The notes under the pieces: model-generated
Database searches by the model: none
Seen by the model: the letters and a program-made list of their open reading frames with translations, nothing else
Told to the model about the DNA's origin: nothing
Position numbers and translations under genes: made by a program
IMG/VR virus record: IMGVR_UViG_3300031963_000406
Coordinates: 1 to 38,015 of that record
Direction: 5' to 3' (one strand)
Source: a virus
Length of the DNA stretch: 38,015 bases
Part shown: piece after piece, positions 1 to 38,015 of the stretch
Layout: each line of letters starts with the position of its first letter
Position numbering within the stretch: the stretch's first letter is position 1

Positions 1-3000
1 TGGCCTTTTGTTTACTGCGGATTTTGCTTCCAATACCCGGCGCGAACTGGTGCAAAGCGGCCTTGATGCCGATCAGGCGCGGAAGGTCGGCGTCATGGCG
101 GCTCCGCTGCAAGCGGCTGTCGAAAGCCTATCGAACATGGTGAGCCTCGGCAAGTTCCCGGCTGTCCAGTCGGTGCTATCCCGCTTCACGCGTCCTGTCG
201 GCGGCGCGTCGCTGGTCGGTCGCTACGTCCAGAACTCGCTTATCTCCGGCGCTACGGAGTTCACCGAGGAGCAGGTGCAGGACAATGTTGTGGTGCCAGC
301 CATGCAGGAGCTTCTAGGCGCTCTTGAAAAGGACGTCCCGGACGTGGATTGGAGTTTTTACAAGACGCGGGCCGCGAATGCGACGCCTGAACTTGCGGTG
401 ACGCTGCTCCCGATGGCGCTGGTGTTTGGCGGTGTGATGACGGCGGCGGATGCGCGGCTTTCGGATCGCATGACTTCCAATGTCGATGCCCTGACGGCGC
501 TCAACTACTCGCAGGCACAGGCGACGGAAATCGTCCAAGAAAAAACGCCCGAGGCCCGCATTGCAAAGGCGGCCTCTCTGTGGCGTTCCCGCGAGGGCAA
601 CAAGACATCCTTGGAACAAGGCGCGACCAAACTGGCGGAGCGTTTGAAGGCGCTTTCTAGCGATGCTGTGGCCTATCAGGCGGAGCTTGAGCGGCGCGGC
701 GTGCTGCCTCGCGTAATGCACACGGCTGAAAATGACTGGCTGCTGACCTTCAACGACGGCTCAACGGCCCGTTTTGCCACGCATGACGAAGCCAGCACGG
801 CCCGCTGGACGTGGGCAGAAGATCAACTTGGCCGCGTGCATGCTTTGACCCGCGAGGCTTTGACCTCGATGGAACGCAACATGAGCACCAACCGCGAGCT
901 TGGCGTAGAGTTCAAGCCAGATGTTCGCATGGTGGAAGCCGGGCAAACGACGCCGGACATTCAGCGGCGCGTCGAACAGGGCAAGGTGCTTGGCGACATT
1001 GACCCGAACGAGGCCTTTGATACGGCCTCGATGGTGGATCGAGCTACGGCGGAGGCTGACGGCTTTTTGTCCAGTTATCAGATTCTCGGTTCGTCTAGGA
1101 ACGAGTTCAAAGACGGCGTTTTGCGCACGACCATCAAGCTGTGGGAAGGCTCCAACGTCCTGACGCTTGTTGAAGAAAAGCTCGAAGGCGATGCCAAGGC
1201 GATTGTGTCGAGCCGTGGCGGGCGAGGCTGGATGCTGGCGGCGTTGCGGAACTACGAACAGGAAAGCGGCGACAAGCTCTTTCGCGAAGTCCCGGACAAT
1301 CAACTGACGGACGACGATCTTGTCGAGGCATGGTCGCACTTGGGGCAGTCCTACCTAGTCGGGCGCTCGTCGTTTGGCGAGCCGTTGCAACAGAACAACA
1401 TGCGGCGCTTCTCGCGTCTGCTCATGCGTGCCGGTCTGGCCGGTGCGCTCAACTCGGAATCGACTTTCTGGCAAGCCGTCGTGAACCGCGCCCAAAAGCT
1501 CGGCGAACTCAAGGCGGCGGGCAAGCTGAATGAAGACGTGGTTGCCGAACTCGAAAAGCAGCTTGGCATTGATTCGCAGGTGAAGCATGAACAGGGCGCG
1601 ATGCAGGAAGTGCAGCAGGTGCGCGACGAGGTAGCGCAGCAGGTGGACACTTCCGGATATTCGGAGGCGACTCCGGGGCCGAATGGCGAGACGTTCTCGA
1701 TTGCGCCGTCGTTATTAAGTGTAAAGCCGCCAAGGGGCGTGGTGGCAAATACCACGGATGCTTTGCCATCATGGACGTTGCCAAAAATTAGCGGCAGCGT
1801 TTCTAAGGTTCTTAATTCTCCAAAGGTTCGGGCTGAGTTTTATGGCAAACTCGACAAGGCTATCGAGTGGCTACGGGCAGACCCTTTGCAGATTACGACT
1901 GCAAAGGGCTGGGTGACGTTTATGCGCAAGGCTGGCGTTTGGGGAGATATCCCGATGCCTCCATCTGGCCTTGCTGACATCATTGCCAATCCGGCTGCAT
2001 ACGTCGCCAAGCTAAACGGTGGATATCACGGCGCAGCATCATTGAGCGACACGCAGACTTCCGCGAAACAGGGCATGGACGGCACTGTGGAAATGCGAAA
2101 ATTAATCGGTGATGGCAAGGCTCCGGCGCCGTTCGTTGTCGCTTTGCACAATATGTGGGGTATTTTATCCCGCATGCTTTCTCCAATTGATCAAGAGGGC
2201 ATGTGGTTGCGACTGATCGCCCACCGTCCCGTGCTCGACGCGATTCAGTCATCCATCGACGGCACGTTTGCCATGACCGTGGATCAATGGAAACAGGTGG
2301 TGCAGGACGCTCGCGCATCCAGCGCAGTTGAGTCTGGCCCGATTGGCAACGCGGCGACGTCGAACGCTAACGACTTTTACCTCATGCTTTCGCGGCTCAA
2401 TGGCCGCTGGAATGACATGGCCGATGTGTATGCCGCGCCAAACAGCCGTGAAATGGGAAGGCGCTTTTGGAACATTGGGGCGGGCAAGCTCGGCATCAAA
2501 AACAAGGTTCAGCGGTTTATCGGCCTTACGTTTGGGACTCCAGGCGTAATTATGGATCGATGGAAATTTGTCGAGTTTTGGTTGCCAACGGCAATGGAAG
2601 GAATGCAGGCAAATGAGCCTTCAAGCTATTTTAATTACAGCGCAAACACTCCATCTGACCCGGTTGGCGTCTACGGCGTTTATGGCGGCATAGACAGTGA
2701 CAACGAAGCGCTTTCCTTGGCAATGTATGAAGCTTTCGAGGTCGTGCTTGAGGAGTCGATTGCCAAATCTGAGGAACTACAGTTTCACCTTGGAGAGCAC
2801 GCCAACGCGGGCGGCATGCACTGGTTTGGTTGGAATGCCATTAAAAATGAGGCTGTCGGGCACTCATCACTCGACCTGACCAAGGAATTGATTGCGACGT
2901 TTGGTCTTGATATCGACGCTGAAAAGGTTCACACTACCGTCACAAATGGCACTTACTACACAGAAGGCTCCCCTTCCGCAGGAAACACCGTCAAGTTCGT

Positions 3001-6000
3001 TCTTGAGCGCGGCAAAGTCCGAGTCGAACGCACGACCTTGGCCGGCGGATTTCAGTCAGGACAAGCCGGAAGAAACGCTAAAGCAGCGGGAAGAGGAATT
3101 GCGGAAGGCCGAACAGGAACTTCTGGGGCGATAGGCGACACTTTCAGTATTCGCAAGCCTACCAAAAAGCAGTTGGACAAGATTTTGCCCAACGCCAAAT
3201 ACATTGCGCCAGATGAGTTAATGGACGCTGAAATTCGCGGCCCCGTTGTCATTGGCGCTTATCACGGCACAACGCACACAATCGAGCAATTCACCGATGA
3301 GCGGGCCTACCTTGAAAATGACATGGGGGCAGGCGTGTATGCTTCAACTTCCATTGAAGATGTAAATGCCAACTATGCAGGCGAAGGGCCAGACCTAACG
3401 CAGCGCATCGAACTGACAAAAGAGCAGTTGGTGAACGACGGCATGGATGAAGACGAGGCGGAACGCGAGGCGCGAAGCATGCTGAAAGGTCATGGCGGCG
3501 CGGTAATTCCTTTGTTGATTCCCATGCGAAATCCGGTGGTTTTATGGAAAGGGCGCGTTGGCGATTCTACCAACAGAGGCACATTCATTGAATTTAGAGG
3601 CGACGTTGAGCAGTATCGCGATGAGGCAGAGGAACTTGTCATGGATCGCGAAGGAATTACACGCGACGAATTGCCGGACTATCAGGACCAAGTGCAAGAC
3701 GCCATGTATGAAATCGAAGCTGAAAAAGACTTTGATGGAGTATTGGCAAAGATTGCTCGCGTGGTCGATTCGTTTGATGACACCGATTCCGGCGCTTTTG
3801 TTTCATCGCTTGATCAAGATGGCATGTATGCAGCCGATTTGGAGCAAGAGCTTCGTAACAACGAAGGGACTGTTTATGCAACTTCTGGCGACAATGGACA
3901 ACTAGCAGTTGGCGAGCTTATCCGTCGTGTCTTCATGGACGCTTTGGGATTTGATGGCATCATTGATAAAAACGTGAACACTAAGTTTGGTTCACGCAGC
4001 AGAGGCAAGGCAATGGCCGGAATGGATGACAACACGGCGCATGTTATTGTTGCGACAGACACGGAATTGCGCCCGCGTTCGGCATTTAATACGGATACAA
4101 CTTTCAGCCTGCGCGTGACTCCGGCGCAAGACGCCGAATACCTCGCAGCGGTTGAGGCTGGCGACAGCGGCAGCGACAACCTCAATCAACTACTGCGTGA
4201 TGCTTCGCCAGATGAGCGTCAAGCGGTGGTCGATTCGTGGATCAAGCGCAATCCAAAGGCGGCTGCTAGGATGCAGCGGATGGTAAATGATGCGGCGAAG
4301 AAGGCGGGGTATAGTGTGGGAACTTTTATCCACAGAACAGATTCGGATTTTAATTCATTCCTGAAAAGCAAGGGATGGACATGGTTTAATACCGATGAGT
4401 CATTGGATGAAGATTTCCAATTCACTTACGGTGATAGAAGAATAGACGCATATCTTGATTTATCCAGAAAATATACTTTTGATGAAGACTTCCAACCTTG
4501 GGAAAGTGCCTATCAAAGAAATGCTGAGTTAGCTTCCTTGGAGAATAAGGGGATAACATCTATTCAGATGCCTTCGGGGGATGTTGCGGTAGCGAATCCA
4601 AGCCAAATCAAATCCGCCGACCCCGTAACCTACGACGACGCGGGCAACGTGATCCCGCTTTCTAAGCGGTTCAACCCTGCGGATGATCGCATTACATACA
4701 GCCTTCGCCCCGGCGACTTCGCCTCACGCGTGGAAGCGATGTTCTCGCCCTTTCAGCGTTCGCCGGAAGCTCGCTTAGTCATGGCTCGCGTCGCGAAGGA
4801 TCGCGCGTTGCGAGTCATGCCGCAACTGCTTGAGCTTCAAGCGCAGTTTGATAACAACGAAAAACAGCGGCAAGATTTGGAAACTAAGTTTGCAGAAGAA
4901 TCTGCACAGCTTCGAGCCGATTTAGAAGCAAATGAAAAACAAATTCGTCAGGACCGCGATTTTGAAATAAAAGGCGTTGCACAAGACAAAGGCAGCGAAT
5001 TGGATCGAGAACGCATTCGACGTGATGCCGATAACAAACTCGCCAGCTTGCGGTTGGAATATGAGCGCAACATTAGAGAACTGGAAAAACGCAAAGAATC
5101 TGAAACGGCTAAACTGTCACGCAAAGACACTTCGGCTCAACGCGAAAAAACTCGCCAACTGCTGCGCGTGCTAGATGGCATTCTTGCAGCCTCACCTCCC
5201 GAGGTCCGCGCCCGCGTGGGCGGTTTCGTCAAAATGGCCGGCATCGCCACCGATGAGGCAGCGCTGCGGTATCTCGAAGATCGCGTTGCCAAGCTCGACA
5301 AGGAGCTTGAAAAGTGGCTCAAGAAGGACGCCGCGGGTAGCATCAACCGGCTGTTCAAGAAAGCCGCTGCCGACTACACGGCGGGCAAGAAGGCCAAAGG
5401 CAAGCTCGGCCCGGATGAGCATTACCTCTTCCAGCGTGCGGAAGCGGCAACCACGATGGATGCGGCGGCGCTGCGTGGTGAACTGGCAAAGCTTGATGCC
5501 TTGTCGGTTGACGACTCGCTTTCCGACGATCAACGCGTTCTTGCGGTGCTGGAACGCGGCATTGTCGAGCTTGTGGGCGACATGAAGAACGCGGATTCCG
5601 GGCGGCTCTTTACGGCTTTTGATGAACTGACGCGGCTCTACTCTCAAGGCGTGGTCGCATGGAAGGCCAAGCAGACGGCACGACGCGAGGCGCGGCAGGC
5701 TGTGCGTGATGCCCTCAAGGCGGACGCGGGCAAATCCGGCGTGCTCAAAGAGCGGCAGGCCATGGAAAAAGCCATGACGACGCTTTTCGGCAAAGCCAAG
5801 TCCGCCTGGCTGTCGGTGTCGTCGTTCTCCGAGGTGTTGCGCTACGCTTTCGGCTCCAAGTCGCAGCAGGCTACGGAATTGATCGACGGCGAGCGCGAAG
5901 CCTCGAATGATTACGAGGACGAGCAGCAGGCCATTGCTGACGAACTCGAAACCCTTTTTACCTCGATGGCTGGCGGTAAAGTGCTCGACGGCGAACGGCT

Positions 6001-7660
6001 GCGCTTTGACATGGCGCAACGGACCATCAAGGCTGGAGACGTAGAGCTTTCGCAATTTGAGGCCATCACAGCACTTCTAATGTGGCGGCAAGAGGATGGT
6101 CGCAGGCACATGGAAGGCACGTTTGACGAGAACGGGCAACGCACTTCTGGCTGGTCCTACGATCAGGCATGGATTGACGAGGTAGAGAAGCAACTCACGC
6201 CGGAAGGGCGTAGCTTCATGGCATGGTTGGCAGCCAAATACGGCAGCGAACACGGCGAACTCAACGCGCTCTATCGCGAACGGCACGGCGTGAACCTGCC
6301 TGCGCACGACAACTATGCGCCCCTAACCGTAAAACCGATGCAGGCAAAGGCGGGCGAAATCGTCGATCCTGTATCCGGCGCGGCGGTGTCTGGCTCGATT
6401 CTGACGCCGGGCAGTCTCCGCACGCGGTCCCGCATGGCTATTGCTGAACCTGAGTTCCGCGACGCTCTACAAACCTTCGTCGCTCACAAGAAGCAAATGG
6501 GCTACTGGAAGGCTTACTACGACCTTGCGACGGACGTTCAGGCAGTGCTCGGCAACCGCGAGCTTATGAACTCCGTGGAGGCGGCGGCAGGTAAGGAGGC
6601 CGTCGTGACGCTGCGGAAGTGGATGGACGTTCTAGCACAGGGCGGCGTGCGCGATGCAGCGGCGGGCCTTGCCATGAATGGCATGTTCCAGCGCATGATG
6701 AACCGGGCCGCTACTGTGGGCCTCTTGGGGCGCGTCTCGACGCTCTTGGTGCAATCTACGCAGCTTGCGGCGGCCTCGGTGCAAATGCCCGTTGGCGCGT
6801 ATCTGCGGCGCTTTGGGAAGCTCTTGGCCGGTCAACTCGACTGGAAGGGCGCGATTCAATCCGACTTCATCCAGCGCCGTATCCAGTCCGCGCCGCCGAT
6901 TGTGCGGCAAGCGATGGAAAACCTCGGCACGGCTACGCGTCCAAACCTCATTAAGCAAGCCGTTCGCAAGTTGGGCAATTTGCTTACTGGCGCAGACGGT
7001 CTTTTTACGGGTGGCACTTATGCGATTCTCCTTGATTACCACCGCGAGACGGGGCGCAAACTTGGCCTGACCGGCACGGATCTCGAAGAGCACGCCCACA
7101 GGGAGGCAGAACGCGCAACCGAAGAGGTTGCACAACCAACACGCACGGCGACACGAAGCCTTGCGGAAATTACGGCGACGAATCCGCTCGCGAAGGTCTC
7201 GTTTGCCTACGCATCCGAAGCTCGGCAAAAGATCGCGCTTCTTGGATGGGCAGCGGTCAACTTCAAAGCTGACCCGGTGCGTTTTGGCAAGGCGGCGTTC
7301 CTCGTCTTTGGCGTCGGCGGCGTGATGTCGCAGGTGCTCAAAAACATCTGGAAGGAGGCCAAGGGGGACGACGACGAAGAGAAGTGGTCGCCTGAAAGGC
7401 TGGTGCGCGGATCGGTGGCAAACGCGCTTCACGGCATTCCGATGATGTCGGAAATCATGGGTGAACCTGGCATGTTCTCAAGCACCGCATGGGCGCAAGC
7501 ATCGCTCGATGACTTGCTAAAAGGCGAGGCCGACTTGCGCGACATCAACACGCTCTTGGGAACGCTCGGCCTGTTTAACGACACGGCGGCAGGCGTCGCG
7601 GCCATGTCCAATGCAGGCTACGATTTTGCCAAGATCATTGAGGCTGCTTTTTCTGAGTGA
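1..7660 (+). CDS. Giant polyvalent internal-virion protein, 3' part (continues from 36868-38015)
   Basis: This is the distal part of a gene that enters from the left edge. The first complete codon is at 2, and the frame is continuous with 36868-38015 if the ends are joined (2,935 residues; numbering here is for the joined protein). Order of parts: helical N-terminal region; a central region of unknown fold (about 945-1430); an ADP-ribosyltransferase-like module (about 1460-1745) with YHGTTH (His near 1471), GAGVYAST and FDGIIDK; a second ART-like module (about 1825-1945) with FIHRTDSDF, WFNTDE and SQIKSADPVTYDDAGN; a charged coiled coil (about 1990-2105); and a long helical C-terminal region with a hydrophobic stretch near 2813-2833. 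This resembles the polyvalent proteins described by Iyer and colleagues in phages and conjugative elements. It lies where T7 encodes gp16, so I infer an internal core protein ejected with the DNA. I saw no lysozyme or transglycosylase motif. The catalytic Glu expected in active ARTs is not evident, so activity is unproven. GC falls to about 37% in the second ART module. Confidence 0.85.
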   Translation, partial: GLLFTADFASNTRRELVQSGLDADQARKVGVMAAPLQAAVESLSNMVSLGKFPAVQSVLSRFTRPVGGASLVGRYVQNSLISGATEFTEEQVQDNVVVPAMQELLGALEKDVPDVDWSFYKTRAANATPELAVTLLPMALVFGGVMTAADARLSDRMTSNVDALTALNYSQAQATEIVQEKTPEARIAKAASLWRSREGNKTSLEQGATKLAERLKALSSDAVAYQAELERRGVLPRVMHTAENDWLLTFNDGSTARFATHDEASTARWTWAEDQLGRVHALTREALTSMERNMSTNRELGVEFKPDVRMVEAGQTTPDIQRRVEQGKVLGDIDPNEAFDTASMVDRATAEADGFLSSYQILGSSRNEFKDGVLRTTIKLWEGSNVLTLVEEKLEGDAKAIVSSRGGRGWMLAALRNYEQESGDKLFREVPDNQLTDDDLVEAWSHLGQSYLVGRSSFGEPLQQNNMRRFSRLLMRAGLAGALNSESTFWQAVVNRAQKLGELKAAGKLNEDVVAELEKQLGIDSQVKHEQGAMQEVQQVRDEVAQQVDTSGYSEATPGPNGETFSIAPSLLSVKPPRGVVANTTDALPSWTLPKISGSVSKVLNSPKVRAEFYGKLDKAIEWLRADPLQITTAKGWVTFMRKAGVWGDIPMPPSGLADIIANPAAYVAKLNGGYHGAASLSDTQTSAKQGMDGTVEMRKLIGDGKAPAPFVVALHNMWGILSRMLSPIDQEGMWLRLIAHRPVLDAIQSSIDGTFAMTVDQWKQVVQDARASSAVESGPIGNAATSNANDFYLMLSRLNGRWNDMADVYAAPNSREMGRRFWNIGAGKLGIKNKVQRFIGLTFGTPGVIMDRWKFVEFWLPTAMEGMQANEPSSYFNYSANTPSDPVGVYGVYGGIDSDNEALSLAMYEAFEVVLEESIAKSEELQFHLGEHANAGGMHWFGWNAIKNEAVGHSSLDLTKELIATFGLDIDAEKVHTTVTNGTYYTEGSPSAGNTVKFVLERGKVRVERTTLAGGFQSGQAGRNAKAAGRGIAEGRTGTSGAIGDTFSIRKPTKKQLDKILPNAKYIAPDELMDAEIRGPVVIGAYHGTTHTIEQFTDERAYLENDMGAGVYASTSIEDVNANYAGEGPDLTQRIELTKEQLVNDGMDEDEAEREARSMLKGHGGAVIPLLIPMRNPVVLWKGRVGDSTNRGTFIEFRGDVEQYRDEAEELVMDREGITRDELPDYQDQVQDAMYEIEAEKDFDGVLAKIARVVDSFDDTDSGAFVSSLDQDGMYAADLEQELRNNEGTVYATSGDNGQLAVGELIRRVFMDALGFDGIIDKNVNTKFGSRSRGKAMAGMDDNTAHVIVATDTELRPRSAFNTDTTFSLRVTPAQDAEYLAAVEAGDSGSDNLNQLLRDASPDERQAVVDSWIKRNPKAAARMQRMVNDAAKKAGYSVGTFIHRTDSDFNSFLKSKGWTWFNTDESLDEDFQFTYGDRRIDAYLDLSRKYTFDEDFQPWESAYQRNAELASLENKGITSIQMPSGDVAVANPSQIKSADPVTYDDAGNVIPLSKRFNPADDRITYSLRPGDFASRVEAMFSPFQRSPEARLVMARVAKDRALRVMPQLLELQAQFDNNEKQRQDLETKFAEESAQLRADLEANEKQIRQDRDFEIKGVAQDKGSELDRERIRRDADNKLASLRLEYERNIRELEKRKESETAKLSRKDTSAQREKTRQLLRVLDGILAASPPEVRARVGGFVKMAGIATDEAALRYLEDRVAKLDKELEKWLKKDAAGSINRLFKKAAADYTAGKKAKGKLGPDEHYLFQRAEAATTMDAAALRGELAKLDALSVDDSLSDDQRVLAVLERGIVELVGDMKNADSGRLFTAFDELTRLYSQGVVAWKAKQTARREARQAVRDALKADAGKSGVLKERQAMEKAMTTLFGKAKSAWLSVSSFSEVLRYAFGSKSQQATELIDGEREASNDYEDEQQAIADELETLFTSMAGGKVLDGERLRFDMAQRTIKAGDVELSQFEAITALLMWRQEDGRRHMEGTFDENGQRTSGWSYDQAWIDEVEKQLTPEGRSFMAWLAAKYGSEHGELNALYRERHGVNLPAHDNYAPLTVKPMQAKAGEIVDPVSGAAVSGSILTPGSLRTRSRMAIAEPEFRDALQTFVAHKKQMGYWKAYYDLATDVQAVLGNRELMNSVEAAAGKEAVVTLRKWMDVLAQGGVRDAAAGLAMNGMFQRMMNRAATVGLLGRVSTLLVQSTQLAAASVQMPVGAYLRRFGKLLAGQLDWKGAIQSDFIQRRIQSAPPIVRQAMENLGTATRPNLIKQAVRKLGNLLTGADGLFTGGTYAILLDYHRETGRKLGLTGTDLEEHAHREAERATEEVAQPTRTATRSLAEITATNPLAKVSFAYASEARQKIALLGWAAVNFKADPVRFGKAAFLVFGVGGVMSQVLKNIWKEAKGDDDEEKWSPERLVRGSVANALHGIPMMSEIMGEPGMFSSTAWAQASLDDLLKGEADLRDINTLLGTLGLFNDTAAGVAAMSNAGYDFAKIIEAAFSE
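1690..4710 (+). repeat. Recurrent (T)FS(I/L) boundary motif in the giant protein
   Basis: Four short related peptides mark the edges of the central modules: GETFSIAPS near 1690, GDTFSIRKP near 3137, DTTFSLRVT near 4096 and RITYSLRPG near 4691. Each lies between regions of different composition or fold. Similar short strings recur at module ends in other polyvalent phage proteins. They may be linker or recombination seams, or processing sites. Only the repetition itself is seen here. Confidence 0.5.
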
Positions 7661-27985: not shown

Positions 27986-28471
27986 ATGGATTTCCTGACC
28001 TACACCTGCCCGCGTGAACTCGAAACCGTGACCGGCAAAGCGGCAGCGGTTTGGAACGAGGTCATGCGGGATTTAGTTCACATCCGCAAATGGCAACCAC
28101 TGCCTCTTGGCATCACGAAAACAGCATGGCCATTGCAAGCCGATGTGGTGATTGAATGGTCATTGAAAGTGCGATCTGCAATGCACCCTGACCGTGTGGC
28201 AGTCTGCCAACGCATTGCGCCTAGTCGCTGGTTAATTCGCCTCGATGAATCTCGCAAGTGGGCAGTGTCAACTTGGGCGCGGTGGATTGGCAACGGTGAA
28301 GACGCTTTGGCGTGTTTGGTGCATGAGTTTGGTCATGTCTTCCAGCTTCCGCACGCAGACGATCCATTTTATGTCATGCACCCGCAAATCGGCGGCAATG
28401 GCAAGCTATCGAAACAAGAAAAAAAACTGTATCGCGAATGGTTTTTGAATCTGCTCGAAAACGAGCAATAA
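27986..28471 (+). CDS. Matrixin-like zinc metalloprotease (metzincin)
   Basis: This encodes 161 residues. The C-terminal half has HEFGHVFQLPH (113-123) followed eight residues later by Met131 in YVMHP, the spacing of matrixin/metzincin active sites (HExxHxxGxxH with a Met-turn, and 'DPxxxMxP'). His113, His117 and His123 would bind zinc and Glu114 would be catalytic. The usual Gly of the motif is Gln120 here. No signal peptide is present. It starts 3 nt after the scaffold gene and precedes the capsid gene across the minus cassette, so it may process scaffold, capsid or the giant protein. Substrate is unknown. A serine-type prohead protease is not seen. Confidence 0.82.
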   Translation: MDFLTYTCPRELETVTGKAAAVWNEVMRDLVHIRKWQPLPLGITKTAWPLQADVVIEWSLKVRSAMHPDRVAVCQRIAPSRWLIRLDESRKWAVSTWARWIGNGEDALACLVHEFGHVFQLPHADDPFYVMHPQIGGNGKLSKQEKKLYREWFLNLLENEQ

Positions 28472-31843: not shown

Positions 31844-34588
31844 ATGCCTCATTCACTTCACGTCAATTTCAACGGCGGCATCTATTCGCCGCTTATGGAA
31901 GGCCGAGTTGATTTTGAGCAATATCGCACCGGCTGCCTCCAAATGAAAAACTTCATTGTGCGTCCCTACGGCGGCGCGTTTAAGGCTCCAGGCACACAAT
32001 ACATTGGCGAGGTCAAAACGTCTTCAAAAAAAACACGGCTCATCCCGTTGCGTGTTTCGACTGCAGAAAACTACTTTATTGAAGTAGGCGAAGGCTATTT
32101 TCGATTTTGGCGCGACAGTGATCCGGGTGGTTACCTACAAATCAAAAGCGGATATTCCGTCACGGCGCATTCGACGGCAACGACGTATTACCTTGGCGAT
32201 GTGGCATCAAGTGGCGGCACAAATTACCTGCGCGTTGACAATGATGAGGCAAAAGATTCGAGTTTTGCGGCGGCTCTTTCGGCTGGCTATTGGCACGCTT
32301 TGACTGGCAGCATCTACGAATGGCCGAACGAATACACCGAGAGCGAACTGGCGGTCATCCAGATCCAGCAAATCAACCGGCTGCTTGTGCTTGTTCATCC
32401 AAATCATCCGCCGCAGTTGATCGAGTCAATTCCGGTGGACAGCCTAACTTCGAATTTTATCCGCAACGCCGCATGGAGTGACGCCAACACAACGAACGTA
32501 ACGCACTCGTTCCTCGTCCAGCCGATTAGTTACGTTTTTCCGCCTCTCAAAGAACACGAACTGAGTCGTTCTGGCTACACGGTAACACTCAATTTCGACC
32601 ATGCAGCATGGTTGACTTCGACGGCTTACGTTGTGGGCGACATCCGCACGGTTTCGAGCGTGGCTTACTACTGCACGACGGCGCACACCAGCGGCACGTT
32701 TGCCACGGATCTTGCGGCCAATCGCTGGCGGCTGGCTACAGGGGCAGAAGTTGATTACAAGCTCACAGCAAGCAATTCTTCAGTGTTTAGCGGCCTCGAC
32801 GTTAGCGACCAATTTATCATTGAGCCGTCGCTGTATCGCACGACAAGCGCAAGCTCTCCGCGTGGAGCATCGCTCAAATTGGGCGGCACGTCTCCAAGCG
32901 GATCGCCGGGATCGGAATACACTGCGTCACAGCCTATTTTCATTCAGGGATCTTACAGTGTAACCTCAAGCTGGAAAGCCAACGAATCGCCGCTTGGAAC
33001 CCTGCGGCTTGAGCGTGCTCTCGATGGCGTCAATTGGGAAGTAGTGAAGGAATGGACGCAAAACGACACCTCACAAGGCACATTTGTTTATGAAGACGAC
33101 GCCGCAAAAGCGGGGGAATGGTATCGGCTTGGCGGTTACTGCGAAGCCCTGTCAGGATCACCCGCGAGCGTGTTGCTTGAATCGGCTGACGCACAGGTAA
33201 AGCTGCCGTTTACGATCCGCGCTTTGACTTCATCGACGGTGCTGCAAGTGCGTTCTGCTTTGCCTCGGCAAAGCTTGGCTCCCAAGCCTGCTGTTGGTGT
33301 GGCTGCGTCGGCCTTTTATGTTCATGCCTTTTCGCAGGATAACGGCTATCCTGGAGCTGTCGGGCTGCACAATCTGCGCTTGTGGTTTGGTGGCACCAGC
33401 AAAGAGCCAAATCGAGTTCGTGGCAGCGTGGTAGACGACTTTTTCAACTTTTCGACAGGCGAGGGGGATTCTGACGGATTCGACATTGTGTTGAACTCAA
33501 ACGAATCAAACCTAGTTCGATGGATTGCCAGCTACCGACAAGGGCTGGTCGTTGGGACAACGGGTGAAGAATGGACCATTCAAGGTGGTGGCGACGGCTC
33601 CGAAGTGCTCAAGCCATCAAACGTGCAAGCCATACGGCGCAACCGAGCAGGCTCGACCACGCTGCAGCCCGTGCAAACGAAAGACGCGCTTTTGTGGGTT
33701 TCACCTACCGGGCGCAAGGTCTTTGAGTTCGCCTATGTATTTTCTTCCGACGCCTACGAAGCCAACGACATGACGCTTCGAGCTGAAAACGTAACAGACG
33801 GCGGCATTGTGGCGCTGGCTTACCAAAGTGAACCGGACCCTATTTTGTGGGCCGTGACTGGCGACGGGCGGCTTTTGGGCTTTTCCTACAATCGAGCCAA
33901 CCAAATCACCGCATGGTTCGAGCGCACCACGCAAGGCACGTTTGAAAGCATCGCAGCTGTGCGAGGATCAGCGGAAGCCGATCGCGTTTGGATGATTGTC
34001 AACCGCACTGTGAACGGTTCAACAAAGCGGTATATCGAGCGGTTTTACCCTACTGCGCAGGCTTTCGATTTCGACACGGCCACGGATTTCTGTTACCTCG
34101 ACTGCGCGAAAAAAATCACGCAAGCGAGCAGCACGGCGGTTTCCGGGCTTTCGCACCTCGAAGGGCTGACGGTGAAGGTGTGGCGTTCTGGCACGACCAG
34201 CGAAAGCAAAACGGTTGCGAGCGGGGCGATTACCCTTGGGGCTGCGGCGACGACTCTTTTTGTCGGTTTGCCTTATATTTCGACTCTTCAACCGATGCCG
34301 TTGGAGTTCCAGCTTCAAGACGGAACGGCACAAGGCCGTAAGTTTAACAGCCAGCGGACGCAACTGCTGCTCCACAAAAGCCTTGGAGGCACCATCAAAC
34401 ACGCGACGAGCGGAACGGCTTATGCTATCGAATACCCAGCAGGAACAACTACGGTGTTTTCAGGTCGGAAAGAACAGCACGTTAAAGCGGATTGGACCGA
34501 TGCTGTGACCTTGACTTTTGCGCATGCAGACCCAACGCCTTTCAACATGCTCGGTTACGTTCTCAAATGTGAAATCTCAGGCAAATGA
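31844..34588 (+). CDS. gp12-like tail nozzle (tail tubular protein B)
   Basis: This encodes 914 residues. The start HSLHVNFNGGIYSPLMEGRV and 'GCLQMKNFIVRPYGGAFKAP' are typical of T7 gp12-type nozzles, as is the later 'LYSGTSKEPNRV'-like block (RLWFGGTSKEPNRVRGSVVD) and the C-terminal beta-rich end. Two small repeats of a carbohydrate-binding-like pattern (Y..GDV....G..Y / W) lie near residues 102-152 and 255-302 (for example AAWLTSTAYVVGDI and TTAHTSGTFATDL). The protein forms the distal tail tube. The last codons overlap the next gene (ATGA at 34585). Confidence 0.88.
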   Translation: MPHSLHVNFNGGIYSPLMEGRVDFEQYRTGCLQMKNFIVRPYGGAFKAPGTQYIGEVKTSSKKTRLIPLRVSTAENYFIEVGEGYFRFWRDSDPGGYLQIKSGYSVTAHSTATTYYLGDVASSGGTNYLRVDNDEAKDSSFAAALSAGYWHALTGSIYEWPNEYTESELAVIQIQQINRLLVLVHPNHPPQLIESIPVDSLTSNFIRNAAWSDANTTNVTHSFLVQPISYVFPPLKEHELSRSGYTVTLNFDHAAWLTSTAYVVGDIRTVSSVAYYCTTAHTSGTFATDLAANRWRLATGAEVDYKLTASNSSVFSGLDVSDQFIIEPSLYRTTSASSPRGASLKLGGTSPSGSPGSEYTASQPIFIQGSYSVTSSWKANESPLGTLRLERALDGVNWEVVKEWTQNDTSQGTFVYEDDAAKAGEWYRLGGYCEALSGSPASVLLESADAQVKLPFTIRALTSSTVLQVRSALPRQSLAPKPAVGVAASAFYVHAFSQDNGYPGAVGLHNLRLWFGGTSKEPNRVRGSVVDDFFNFSTGEGDSDGFDIVLNSNESNLVRWIASYRQGLVVGTTGEEWTIQGGGDGSEVLKPSNVQAIRRNRAGSTTLQPVQTKDALLWVSPTGRKVFEFAYVFSSDAYEANDMTLRAENVTDGGIVALAYQSEPDPILWAVTGDGRLLGFSYNRANQITAWFERTTQGTFESIAAVRGSAEADRVWMIVNRTVNGSTKRYIERFYPTAQAFDFDTATDFCYLDCAKKITQASSTAVSGLSHLEGLTVKVWRSGTTSESKTVASGAITLGAAATTLFVGLPYISTLQPMPLEFQLQDGTAQGRKFNSQRTQLLLHKSLGGTIKHATSGTAYAIEYPAGTTTVFSGRKEQHVKADWTDAVTLTFAHADPTPFNMLGYVLKCEISGK

Positions 34589-35121
34589 ATCTTTTTCCTT
34601 TTCCAATTCTGGCCGTTGTCGATTGGGGTGTTATAATTTACTGGACACTTTTTGCGGGTTTAACGGCAGCCTCGACGTATGCCGGATATTCCGCACAACA
34701 GCAGGCCGCCAAGCAAGCCAATCTTAACGCGGAATCGGCAGCGCAACAAGAAGCCGCAAGAAAGGCAGCCGAGCTGGAAGCGGCTACACGGCAACGGTTG
34801 GCGGAGCAACGTCGATTTCGGCAGACTCAAGCGGCAGCAATCTCCGGGCAAGGCATCCAAATGACCGGCACGCCGCTGGACATTTTGGCGGATACGGAAG
34901 TGCAAACGCAACTTGAGCTTCAAAACCTCGCCTTTTCGAACGACCTGCAACAGCAAGACATTCAAAACCGGCGATTATCTGCTTTGTCGGCAGCCGATGC
35001 GGCCAAGCCTAGCACGGGCGCAACGTTGCTTTCCGGCGCGTCATCCATGCTTAACGCTTACGGCAACCTTTCCAGCAATCGGCCTCAAACGGCTAAACCC
35101 GCCACCACGACCACGGGCTAA
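34585..35121 (+). CDS. gp14-like internal virion protein (membrane/coiled-coil)
   Basis: This encodes 178 residues. One hydrophobic segment (about 5-30, FPILAVVDWGVIIYWTLFAG) is followed by a long Ala/Gln-rich coiled coil (QQQAAKQANLNAESAAQQEA, ATRQRLAEQRRFRQTQAAAI), 'SGQGIQMTGTPLDILADTEV', and a Thr-rich tail. By size, membrane segment and position before gp15-like and gp16-position genes it resembles T7 gp14, which helps form the ejection channel in the outer membrane. ATGA-coupled to the nozzle gene. Confidence 0.8.
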   Translation: MNLFPFPILAVVDWGVIIYWTLFAGLTAASTYAGYSAQQQAAKQANLNAESAAQQEAARKAAELEAATRQRLAEQRRFRQTQAAAISGQGIQMTGTPLDILADTEVQTQLELQNLAFSNDLQQQDIQNRRLSALSAADAAKPSTGATLLSGASSMLNAYGNLSSNRPQTAKPATTTTG

Positions 35122-35135
35122 ACAACTTTCTGACC

Positions 35136-36890
35136 ATGCCCCTTGTTCCTCTCGCACCCATCGCTCGCGCTCCAGCTTTTGGCAACGTCGCACCGGTTCA
35201 ACTGACTTCGAACGCCAATCGCACGGCACAAATCGGGCGGGCGATCGGGCAAGCGGGTGAAACGCTGGTCAATTTGCAGGCCAAATACGCCGAGCTTGTG
35301 GACGCTCGCAGCATGATCGCAGCCGAGAACGTCATGCGGCAGACCACGAACGACTTCAACGCGTGGCGGCTTGATCCTCAGAACGCCGACGAATCCGCAT
35401 GGCTGCCTAAGTGGCAGGAAATGCAGTCCACAGCACAGAAGCAAATCGACGGCCTCAAGATGACGGAAGGGGCGCGGCTCAATACAACGCGCTCCTGGGG
35501 CCGGTGGAACGATGCGCAAACCATCAGCGTGCAGGGCGATGTGTTCAAGCAAGGGGTGAAACGCACAAAAGACGCGCTCGACCTCCGCATGAAGCAGGCA
35601 ATTGACTTCGGCGATGATTCCATGATTCGCAGCACCGTAGAGCATGGCGTGAAACTTGGCGTCTTCACTCCCGAAGAAGGGGCGCTTGTTGAATACGACG
35701 CCAGCAAGGCAGCCAAAGGAACGCGCCGGGAGCGGTTCAACCTCGAACTTAAGACGATGCTGGACGCGCCCACGGCCAAAGCTGACGAGGTGAAGGCGTC
35801 GATTCAAAGCAATGCGGATCTGACGGACTCGGAAAAGTCGAGCTTGCTCATGCAGGTGGAGAACCGCTTCAAGGACGCGGAGCTTGAACACTTGATCGAC
35901 ACCAATCCCGTTCACGGTCTCGAAGTTGCACAGAACGACTTTTCACGCGGGCGCATCACCGCAAACCGGCTGGACGAATTGAAACGCCGCAGTGAAACCG
36001 TGCAGACCCGCGAGCGAGGCAAGCAATACGCTGGCATTGCCGACGCCATGAAGGCCAAGGCATCCAAGGCGGAAATCGTGAAGTTGCTCGATGAAGGCAA
36101 CTTTTTGACTCCAGGCGACAAGGCAGAAATTATGACAGCCATCGACAACAAAATGGATGATGAGTTTGTGCTTTCGACGCTGGCGAAAGAAGCCGCAAAC
36201 TTCCAGCACGCGCCGGATTCTCCCGAGTATTTCCTCTTCACCAAGCGCGTCGATGCGCTGGCGACGGGCAATCATCGCTCTCACATTCTCGGGCTGCGTG
36301 ACAAGGCGCTGGCGGGTGAGCAAGACGGCGGATCATTCTCGCGCTCTTGGGGCAAGGTGTTTACTCAAGCGGACGACGATTTGAAGAACGGCGTGTTTGG
36401 TCCAACGACGAGCACGCTGGACGATCCCAAGGCGACGCTGCCGCCGAAAATGCGGGCGGAAGTGGACGCGTTCAAAAAGAACCTCACGAAAGAAACCGGC
36501 ATGATGTGGAGCCGTCGCCCCAAGACTGCCGACGAACTCGAAATGGAGGCACGCGCCTTGTGGCTGTCCGAAGAAAACAAAGGCAAAACGAATCCCGTCA
36601 AAATCGACAAGTTCGTTTTTGAAGACGAGGCCAAGATTCGGTCGGCTAATGCGCTTCGTGTGCAGGCCACGCAAGAGCTTGAAGCCTTCCAAAAAGCCAA
36701 TCCCAACAAGCCCGGCACAGATGCGGCAGCGGAATATGATCGCATCACAGCCAAGCTGCGGTCACAGAAAAACCTGCCGCCTGTGGCACCGACTGGCGGG
36801 GTGAATCCCGCTGGCGTTTTACTGCCATCTCTCGAAGCTCCAGACCTGAACGCCATCCGCCAACGTCATGCCCAAGATTCTCGAAAGTGA
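35136..36890 (+). CDS. gp15-like internal virion protein
   Basis: This encodes 584 residues, almost entirely helical. The N-terminus PIARAPAFGNVAPVQL leads into 'IGRAIGQAGETLVNLQAKYA', followed by amphipathic helical repeats and a C-terminal Pro-rich end. Its place between the gp14-like and giant proteins matches T7 gp15, a core protein that crosses the periplasm with the DNA. No enzymatic motif is seen. It overlaps the start of the giant gene by 23 nt. Confidence 0.8.
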   Translation: MPLVPLAPIARAPAFGNVAPVQLTSNANRTAQIGRAIGQAGETLVNLQAKYAELVDARSMIAAENVMRQTTNDFNAWRLDPQNADESAWLPKWQEMQSTAQKQIDGLKMTEGARLNTTRSWGRWNDAQTISVQGDVFKQGVKRTKDALDLRMKQAIDFGDDSMIRSTVEHGVKLGVFTPEEGALVEYDASKAAKGTRRERFNLELKTMLDAPTAKADEVKASIQSNADLTDSEKSSLLMQVENRFKDAELEHLIDTNPVHGLEVAQNDFSRGRITANRLDELKRRSETVQTRERGKQYAGIADAMKAKASKAEIVKLLDEGNFLTPGDKAEIMTAIDNKMDDEFVLSTLAKEAANFQHAPDSPEYFLFTKRVDALATGNHRSHILGLRDKALAGEQDGGSFSRSWGKVFTQADDDLKNGVFGPTTSTLDDPKATLPPKMRAEVDAFKKNLTKETGMMWSRRPKTADELEMEARALWLSEENKGKTNPVKIDKFVFEDEAKIRSANALRVQATQELEAFQKANPNKPGTDAAAEYDRITAKLRSQKNLPPVAPTGGVNPAGVLLPSLEAPDLNAIRQRHAQDSRK

Positions 36891-38015
36891 AGCCCTCACA
36901 ATAGCCCGCTCGATTGACCAAGCGCCTGAAACGGATCGCCCGTGGATGCTTGATCTTTTGGACCGCTATCAGCAGCAGCAGCGTGACGACGGGGAGCCTG
37001 ACTGGCCTTCTGTCGAACGTGCTCGCGTGGAGCGTGAAACCAATTTGCGCGGCATGTTTGAGTCACCGGACAAAATCACCTATGATCCGGGGCCGTTTTC
37101 ACAGAATCCGCAAGAAGCGAAGATGCTTCACGCCAACATGGCTTTGCTGTCCGCTCGATACCAGAAAGAACCACGGGAAGTTGCGGAGCGGTATGATTTT
37201 CTCATCAACGACTTTGCCCGGCAGAAGTTCGGCGCGTCTGAGGATGTGGACACGGCCAAGTTCTATGCGCTGGCACAAAAGGACATGCAGCGGATCAAAC
37301 TGCTCGAGGACACGCAACGCGAGGGCGTCAACGCGGCCCTGCGCGGCGAGGATGGCGTGAAGGCGCTGGCGGCATGGCAGGCCAAGAACGCGGATCGAGC
37401 CAAAGAAGACGCCGGGCTTTTCATGCGTGGATACCAGCAGGCGCTCGAACAGGACGGCGAAATGCTGCCGATTGCTGACCGGCTTTTGCCATTGCTCGAA
37501 GCGCAATCCACCAAAAAATACGGACAAGCCTTTGACCAGACCAAAGCGCAAGAGCTTGGCGGCATGATCGAACAGCTTGCGGGCATGAAGAAAGCGCAGC
37601 GCAAGAGCGTGTATCGCTCCATTGCTGCCCGGATCGAGGCCGCTGGCTACGATCAGAAAGGCTTCTGGTCGCAGATGCTCGGCTTTCTCGACCAACAACT
37701 TTATGCGGCAGCATCGTCTGTGGGAGAAACGGGCGGCATTGCTGTTGATGCGTCTATTGCGTTAGCGCAAGCGTCGGGCCGTTCGGTGGATATGCTGGAC
37801 GGCACTCCCATTGCAACGCCTGTTTTGTCTCCTGAGCAACAACAAGCGTTAATGCGGCAACGTGATTATCGTGAACGCATTGGCGATGTGGAGGGTGAAA
37901 TCATACAGATTGTTTCCGGCGAACTCGACCCGGTAAAGCCAACAACGGGCTGGATGAACGAGACGATTGAAACCGGCTTGATTAAAGCTCCTGGGGCTAT
38001 TTTGCCTTCAATGGG
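36868..38015 (+). CDS. Giant polyvalent internal-virion protein, 5' part (continues at base 1)
   Basis: ATG 36868 opens inside the end of the gp15-like gene and the frame runs off the right edge with 382 complete codons plus GG. Adding the T at base 1 makes GGT (Gly) and continues as GGC CTT TTG TTT ACT, the frame that ends at 7660. This N-terminal part is helical and charged (ILESEALTIARSIDQAPETD, ARYQKEPREVAERYDFLIND, 'QKDMQRIKLLEDTQREGVNA'), as in gp16-position core proteins of related podoviruses. No lytic transglycosylase motif is seen in these 382 residues, unlike T7 gp16. It reads into a hydrophobic stretch (LIKAPGAILPSMGG). Confidence 0.85.
   Translation, partial: MPKILESEALTIARSIDQAPETDRPWMLDLLDRYQQQQRDDGEPDWPSVERARVERETNLRGMFESPDKITYDPGPFSQNPQEAKMLHANMALLSARYQKEPREVAERYDFLINDFARQKFGASEDVDTAKFYALAQKDMQRIKLLEDTQREGVNAALRGEDGVKALAAWQAKNADRAKEDAGLFMRGYQQALEQDGEMLPIADRLLPLLEAQSTKKYGQAFDQTKAQELGGMIEQLAGMKKAQRKSVYRSIAARIEAAGYDQKGFWSQMLGFLDQQLYAAASSVGETGGIAVDASIALAQASGRSVDMLDGTPIATPVLSPEQQQALMRQRDYRERIGDVEGEIIQIVSGELDPVKPTTGWMNETIETGLIKAPGAILPSM

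Follow-up and report, generated by a model that had tools for sequence, protein, structure and literature searches.

A giant phage protein at the T7 gp16 position with ADP-ribosyltransferase-fold modules in an exchangeable middle

Whether a phage protein in the position of an ejected core protein also carries enzymes destined for the host is the question raised by a giant gene in the viral DNA analysed here (38,015 nt, referred to as the window). The gene appears as an open reading frame at 2-7660 of the plus strand, with an open 5′ end and a stop codon at 7658-7660. An earlier note had claimed that its product harbors two ADP-ribosyltransferase (ART)-like modules, that the protein might hold the place of T7 gp16, and that the catalytic completeness of both modules is doubtful because the conserved glutamate could not be placed. 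The peptides quoted in that note are all in frame in the open reading frame, those of the first module starting at nt 3260 (YHGTTH), about 3326 (GAGVYAS) and 3950 (FDGIID) and those of the second at about 4325 (FIHRTDSDF), 4382 (WFNTDE) and about 4598 (SQIKSADPVTYDDAGN).

The contig L002, which is 99.97-100% identical to the window, spans the junction between the last and the first bases of the window, adding 30 bases and keeping the frame. Joining the two yields a complete giant protein of 2945 aa with its ATG at 36868. The record represents a circular or circularly permuted genome cut within the giant gene, its ends lacking the 30 bases present in L002. Residue numbers refer to the open reading frame of the window (P0001); adding 393 converts them to the numbering of the 2945-aa protein. 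The giant gene is divided as follows:

36868..38015, plus strand: beginning (5′ part) of the giant gene, 382 codons from the ATG to where the window stops (join with L002)
1..7660, plus strand: rest (3′ part) of the gene (P0001, 2552 aa), open reading frame with its stop at 7658-7660
1..1702, plus strand: remainder of the constant N-terminal segment, to residue 960 of the full protein (46-58% identity in L171, L174, L181 and L184, up to the TFS motif)
1703..3151, plus strand: module X, about 485 aa (65% identical in L179)
3239..4096, plus strand: ART1, P0001 residues 1080-1365 (ART-PolyVal in homologues, AlphaFold, VIA-align, conservation)
3263, 3338, 3374, 3953 and 4040, plus strand: ART1 key codons H1088, Y1113, Y1125, D1318 and H1347, respectively
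4253..4702, plus strand: ART2, P0001 residues 1418-1567 (AlphaFold, VIA-align, hhalign to the ART1 profile)
4331, 4382 and 4580, plus strand: ART2 key codons H1444 (in HRT), W1461 and D1527, respectively
5057..7654, plus strand: constant C-terminal segment, about 865 aa (27-73% identity in 15 other phage contigs)

The giant protein is a polyvalent protein, that is, a large phage protein combining unrelated domains (module X and two ARTs) in a virion gene context. No match for it was returned by a PHROGs search, and Pfam revealed no lytic domain in it. Module X matched no known family; its counterpart occupies residues 1066-1552 of the giant open reading frame of L179, which lacks both ART modules.

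Against Pfam ART-PolyVal (PF18760), the profile with which the earlier note had suggested comparing the modules, the isolated ART1 segment reached E 4.8e-5 and 24.6 bits, though this is under the curated cut-off of 31.2 bits. At 35 bits, reached in two stretches of which the second ART of L003 is the better, the L003 protein exceeds this value, the homologue in L009 matches the entire profile at 64.8 bits, and all 60 aligned ART1 homologues match it at E 0.1 or better (best E 1e-22), 39 of them also matching the ART-clan family DUF3990. With an alignment as the query, ART1 relatives were retrieved at 79 viral and 4 bacterial-genome loci. ART1 is the sole segment that the window protein has in common with most other carriers and is thus a mobile module. 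It represents a subfamily, GEGPDL, featuring a long, mostly helical insert at about residues 1130-1310. In Myxococcus phage Mx1 (L004) and Tunturiibacter phage Tunturi_5 (L005), ART1-family domains are hidden under an annotation as NUDIX/MutT hydrolase.

The AlphaFold model of ART1 (pLDDT 89.8, pTM 0.85) found its best PDB match by VIA-align in chain B of the cyanophage A4 pre-ejectosome (9k3a; Z 9.2, 173 residues), followed by tankyrase 2 (Z 7.5), NatT (7.4) and the anti-CRISPR 6kyf, which is AcrIF11 (7.0). The VIA-align lists are nearly pure ART, dominated by tankyrase/PARP, NatT, MbcT, ParT and AcrIF11, although Z values of 5-9 are moderate. Foldseek alone gave no PDB match for the ART1 model below E 0.001, and sequence searches of solved structures recovered no ART. 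The predicted fold of ART1 is that of the ART superfamily (H-Y-x clades).

The active site of ART1 can be read from 67 distinct aligned sequences, including that of the window. H1088, G1109, Y1113, D1120, D1131 and H1347 are invariant (67/67), 66 sequences retain Y1125 and 59 retain D1318, and the active-site positions stay invariant across otherwise unrelated giant proteins. The Glu-bearing strand of PARP1 reads NEYIVYD. The corresponding strand of the ART1 family reads T.H.IVF...; a PARP-type H-Y-E catalytic Glu before the YIV strand is absent, a His being found there in 67/67 sequences. Judged by this sequence pattern, His1347 occupies the position of the PARP catalytic Glu. Elsewhere among polyvalent cassettes this position is filled by Glu more often than by any other residue, yet in just 14/69. 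While PARPs use H-Y-Y-E (PMC7955679), the ARTs of polyvalent proteins have been described as H-Y-D enzymes (Iyer et al. 2017, PMC5512222), which is why no Glu could be placed in ART1. By its residue pattern ART1 fits the H-Y-D arrangement of Tox-ART-HYD2, with H1088 in strand 1, Y1113 in strand 2 and D1318 in strand 5; equating D1318 with the published strand-5 Asp is an assignment made here, from its location in the G-[FY]-D-G-I strand. The missing Glu thus does not speak for an incomplete ART1, a member of an H-Y-D family that retains H, Y and D in addition to the invariant His; the incomplete module is ART2. The requirement of AcrIF11 for H/Y and Asp residues in ADP-ribosylation (PMC12421852) concerns the same type of residues. 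The replacement of the PARP Glu by H1347 could nonetheless mean that transferase activity is altered or lost. In the comparison of the window with L003, for which synonymous sites are saturated, pN amounts to 0.19 for ART1; it is 0.31 in the C-terminal part and 0.36 in ART2, and in the N-terminal parts it reaches 0.39-0.50. Its amino-acid divergence being the lowest in the protein, ART1 is the most constrained part.

ART2 is more divergent in its active site. The isolated segment matches Pfam ART-PolyVal marginally (14 bits, E 0.09), and hhalign pairs it with the ART1 profile at a probability of 99.2 across the C-terminal parts. Its AlphaFold model (pLDDT 86.7) was matched by VIA-align to ART folds in all of the best 50 listed PDB matches (Z 4.8-6.1), among them NatT, MbcT, ParT, PARPs, cholix toxin and exotoxin A. 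The claim of two ART-like modules is thereby borne out by Pfam matches of homologues, AlphaFold and VIA-align: structure prediction returned an ART-like fold for both, of the polyvalent-protein type. A single-sequence scan with ART2 retrieved a near-identical contig only, and its relatives were reached with an alignment query; they form a family of highly diverse cassettes that start with AQRMVDEAAKAAGY-type sequences and end in the tail QIKSADPVTYDDxGNVIPLSxRFNP. Within ART2, H1444 is retained and followed by Arg in place of Gly (HRT), the family Tyr position is taken by W1461, and the Asp of GYDGI by T1519, so that the H-Y-D triad of Tox-ART-HYD2 and polyvalent ARTs is absent. Extending the VIA alignment without gaps beyond its last pair (model residue 143/PARP1 residue 1001) puts D1527 at the PARP Glu position. 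With the fold kept and the family triad lost, ART2 is probably a weak or inactive enzyme, or a binding or spacer domain.

The genes directly upstream of the giant gene place it within a virion gene cluster:

31844..34588, plus strand: position of a gp12-like tail tube protein (the L020 gene at the same position is a phrog_376 tail protein, E 6e-209)
34585..35121, plus strand: gp14-like internal virion protein (phrog_418 internal virion protein, E 2.2e-10), two genes upstream of the giant gene
35136..36890, plus strand: gp15-position gene, 584 aa, immediately upstream of the giant gene (order kept in relatives)

The order tail tube, gp14-like, gp15-position and giant gene is that of T7 and is kept in many ART1 carriers as well as in relatives with the constant ends; the proposed T7 gp16 position is thereby matched by synteny. 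The gp15-position gene of the window has no match in PHROGs; the corresponding genes of L009 and L020 hit PHROG families that carry an endolysin label. In an hhalign comparison with shallow profiles, the constant segments displayed no similarity to T7 gp16, and the label gp16 is therefore a positional one.

A search with the C-terminal part identified 17 loci. Most giant proteins at these loci resemble the window protein at both ends (22-73% identity), over the C-terminal 865 residues and over all or part of the first 960, while their middles differ, harboring other ART-PolyVal types, MuF_C, DUF7178, or module X without an ART. The two ends of the L171 protein, for example, are 51% and 73% identical to those of the window protein, and its middle is unrelated except for an ART tail. 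LPD22, LPD23, MuF_C, GNAT-like and DUF7178 domains were found in the proteins of relatives. The giant protein is thus laid out as constant-variable-constant, its relatives keeping both ends and exchanging the middle. A tblastn search of cultured phages with the C-terminal part gave no matches. The giant open reading frame of L003, the closest relative, carries between its two ARTs, at about residues 1346-1610, LPD23 followed by a HEIQHWIQ metallopeptidase-like stretch, an arrangement that the window lacks.

Short peptides of the type T-[FY]-S-[LI]-R sit exactly at the segment borders of the window protein:

1682..1711, plus strand: junction motif 1, GETFSIA, S566, between the constant N-terminal segment and module X
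3131..3160, plus strand: junction motif 2, GDTFSIR, S1049, between module X and ART1
4091..4120, plus strand: junction motif 3, DTTFSLR, S1369, between ART1 and ART2
4685..4714, plus strand: junction motif 4, RITYSLR, S1567, between ART2 and the C-terminal part

Within the constant-end clade, 34 such peptides were observed against 3.2 expected from shuffles, a ratio to be read with the motif having been picked post hoc and copies inherited in related sequences having been counted repeatedly. Most carriers outside this clade lack the motif. A related motif, the D-I-R-[FY]-S end of polyvalent ART tails, was observed 60 times against 18.4 expected. The junction motifs were considered as DNA recombination seams and rejected in this role, since the copies vary at synonymous codon positions, which argues for selection on the peptide; a protease site or a docking peptide is possible. 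A matrixin-like metallopeptidase gene (HEFGHVFQLPH) lies at 27986-28471 in the head cluster, before the major capsid gene. As a candidate for processing the junction motif it was rejected: among records many of which are fragments, the gene occurs in 1/15 constant-end records (that of L184) and 1/24 searched, and a link between protease and motif is therefore unsupported. It may tentatively be speculated that the giant protein acts as a reloadable launcher, in which the conserved ends are ejection machinery and effectors, in this case an ART with an unusual H-Y-D/H active site, are swapped between T-[FY]-S-[LI]-R motifs, to be cut or docked there and released in the host.

The ejection-gene position, together with ART folds in a swappable middle, suggests a protein that probably brings an exchangeable enzyme for host modification into the infected cell. 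The reading preferred here, at a probability of roughly 0.6, is that of a polyvalent gp16-position protein whose ART1 is probably an NAD+-binding enzyme that mono-ADP-ribosylates a host target early, after entry with the DNA. The gene, its predicted folds, the conservation, the gene order and the exchange of modules are observed, and from them we infer presence of the giant protein in the virion, its injection, its catalysis and a target. The protein would enter the cell together with the phage DNA, with module X, ART1 and ART2 as the putatively interchangeable modules in this case; H1088 and Y1113 would serve to bind NAD+, with Y1125 stacking on the nicotinamide and D1318 and/or the invariant H1347 providing the catalytic group, and a host molecule would be mono-ADP-ribosylated by ART1 as infection starts.

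It is unlikely, though worth weighing, that the ART-like modules are pseudoenzymes, structural parts of the ejectosome kept for assembly or binding rather than catalysis. The H-W arrangement of ART2 with its HRT and lost family Asp, the His in place of the PARP Glu in ART1, and the apparent inclusion of an ART1-like fold in the assembled cyanophage A4 pre-ejectosome would all agree with such a role. However, ART1 retains H, Y, Y and D at positions that are invariant over 67 sequences, and the loss or swapping of modules in relatives argues against a needed structural part. The conserved order of gp12-, gp14-, gp15-position and giant genes, the phrog_418 neighbour and the pre-ejectosome fold match likewise make it quite improbable that the giant protein, instead of being ejected, remains inside the virion or acts at a late stage of infection, a notion which the missing sequence similarity to T7 gp16 would allow.

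ART1 might instead be a hydrolase or phosphorylase of NAD+ that targets the NAD+ pool or some small molecule. The best fold matches include two ART-fold toxins from toxin-antitoxin systems, NatT and MbcT, and the substrate is unreadable from sequence. However, AcrIF11 and ParT, both ADP-ribose transferases, give matches of much the same quality. Moreover, each virion would be expected to carry few copies, as with T7 gp16, and these would be too few to drain NAD+ unless turnover were fast. A hydrolase or phosphorylase is accordingly considered very unlikely, and mono-ADP-ribosylation of a host molecule by ART1 is retained as the preferred reading.

If the preferred reading holds, the ARTs that phages are predicted to inject gain a fixed place in an ejection apparatus of T7 type, ART1 offers an active site that can be tested and that has an unusual invariant His, and related phages exchange the payload but keep the launcher; the constant ends would then serve to find effector payloads in uncultured phages, and each module could be tested by itself. 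Injected ARTs of polyvalent proteins, of which ARTs are the commonest modifying domains, have already been proposed (PMC5512222, PMC9503650), and the window protein is therefore a variant of a known theme. New here are the constant-variable-constant layout with its junction motif and a distinct invariant-His ART subfamily in a gp16-position protein.

Several known systems share features with this protein. T7 gp16 is alike in its gene position after gp14- and gp15-type genes; it has 1318 aa, whereas the window protein, without detectable similarity to it, has 2945 aa and carries ART modules. Alt of phage T4 resembles ART1 in its working, as a phage ART that is packaged in the head and injected, but belongs to the R-S-E clade and is a separate protein rather than a module of an ejectosome protein. 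AcrIF11 is likewise a phage ART that needs H, Y and Asp for activity and matches the ART1 fold, but it is a small free anti-CRISPR protein and not part of a giant virion-type protein. The best ART1 fold match, 9k3a chain B of cyanophage A4 (A-4L), probably shares the gene position as well. Residue numbering and gene order suggest that this chain is ORF27 of Anabaena phage A-4L (1717 aa), which has the same gene position and reads YHGT...GSGTYFSKS from residue 1425 and GVDAL at 1578; the match spans residues 468-1606 of the chain, a range that takes in these motif positions but is too wide to pin the ART within it. Literature on the cyanophage A4 ejectosome was not found. In contrast to ART1, the A-4L protein has no Pfam ART match, weak profile similarity and different flanking sequence. 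Also comparable are the ART-PolyVal/Tox-ART-HYD2 domains (Iyer et al. 2017, PMC5512222), which have in common with ART1 the ART fold with H in strand 1, Y in strand 2 and an Asp, a KSA-type C-terminal tail, and embedding in giant phage proteins predicted to be injected. ART1 differs from these in forming the GEGPDL subfamily with its helical insert, in its score below the Pfam cut-off, and in the invariant His at the PARP Glu position.
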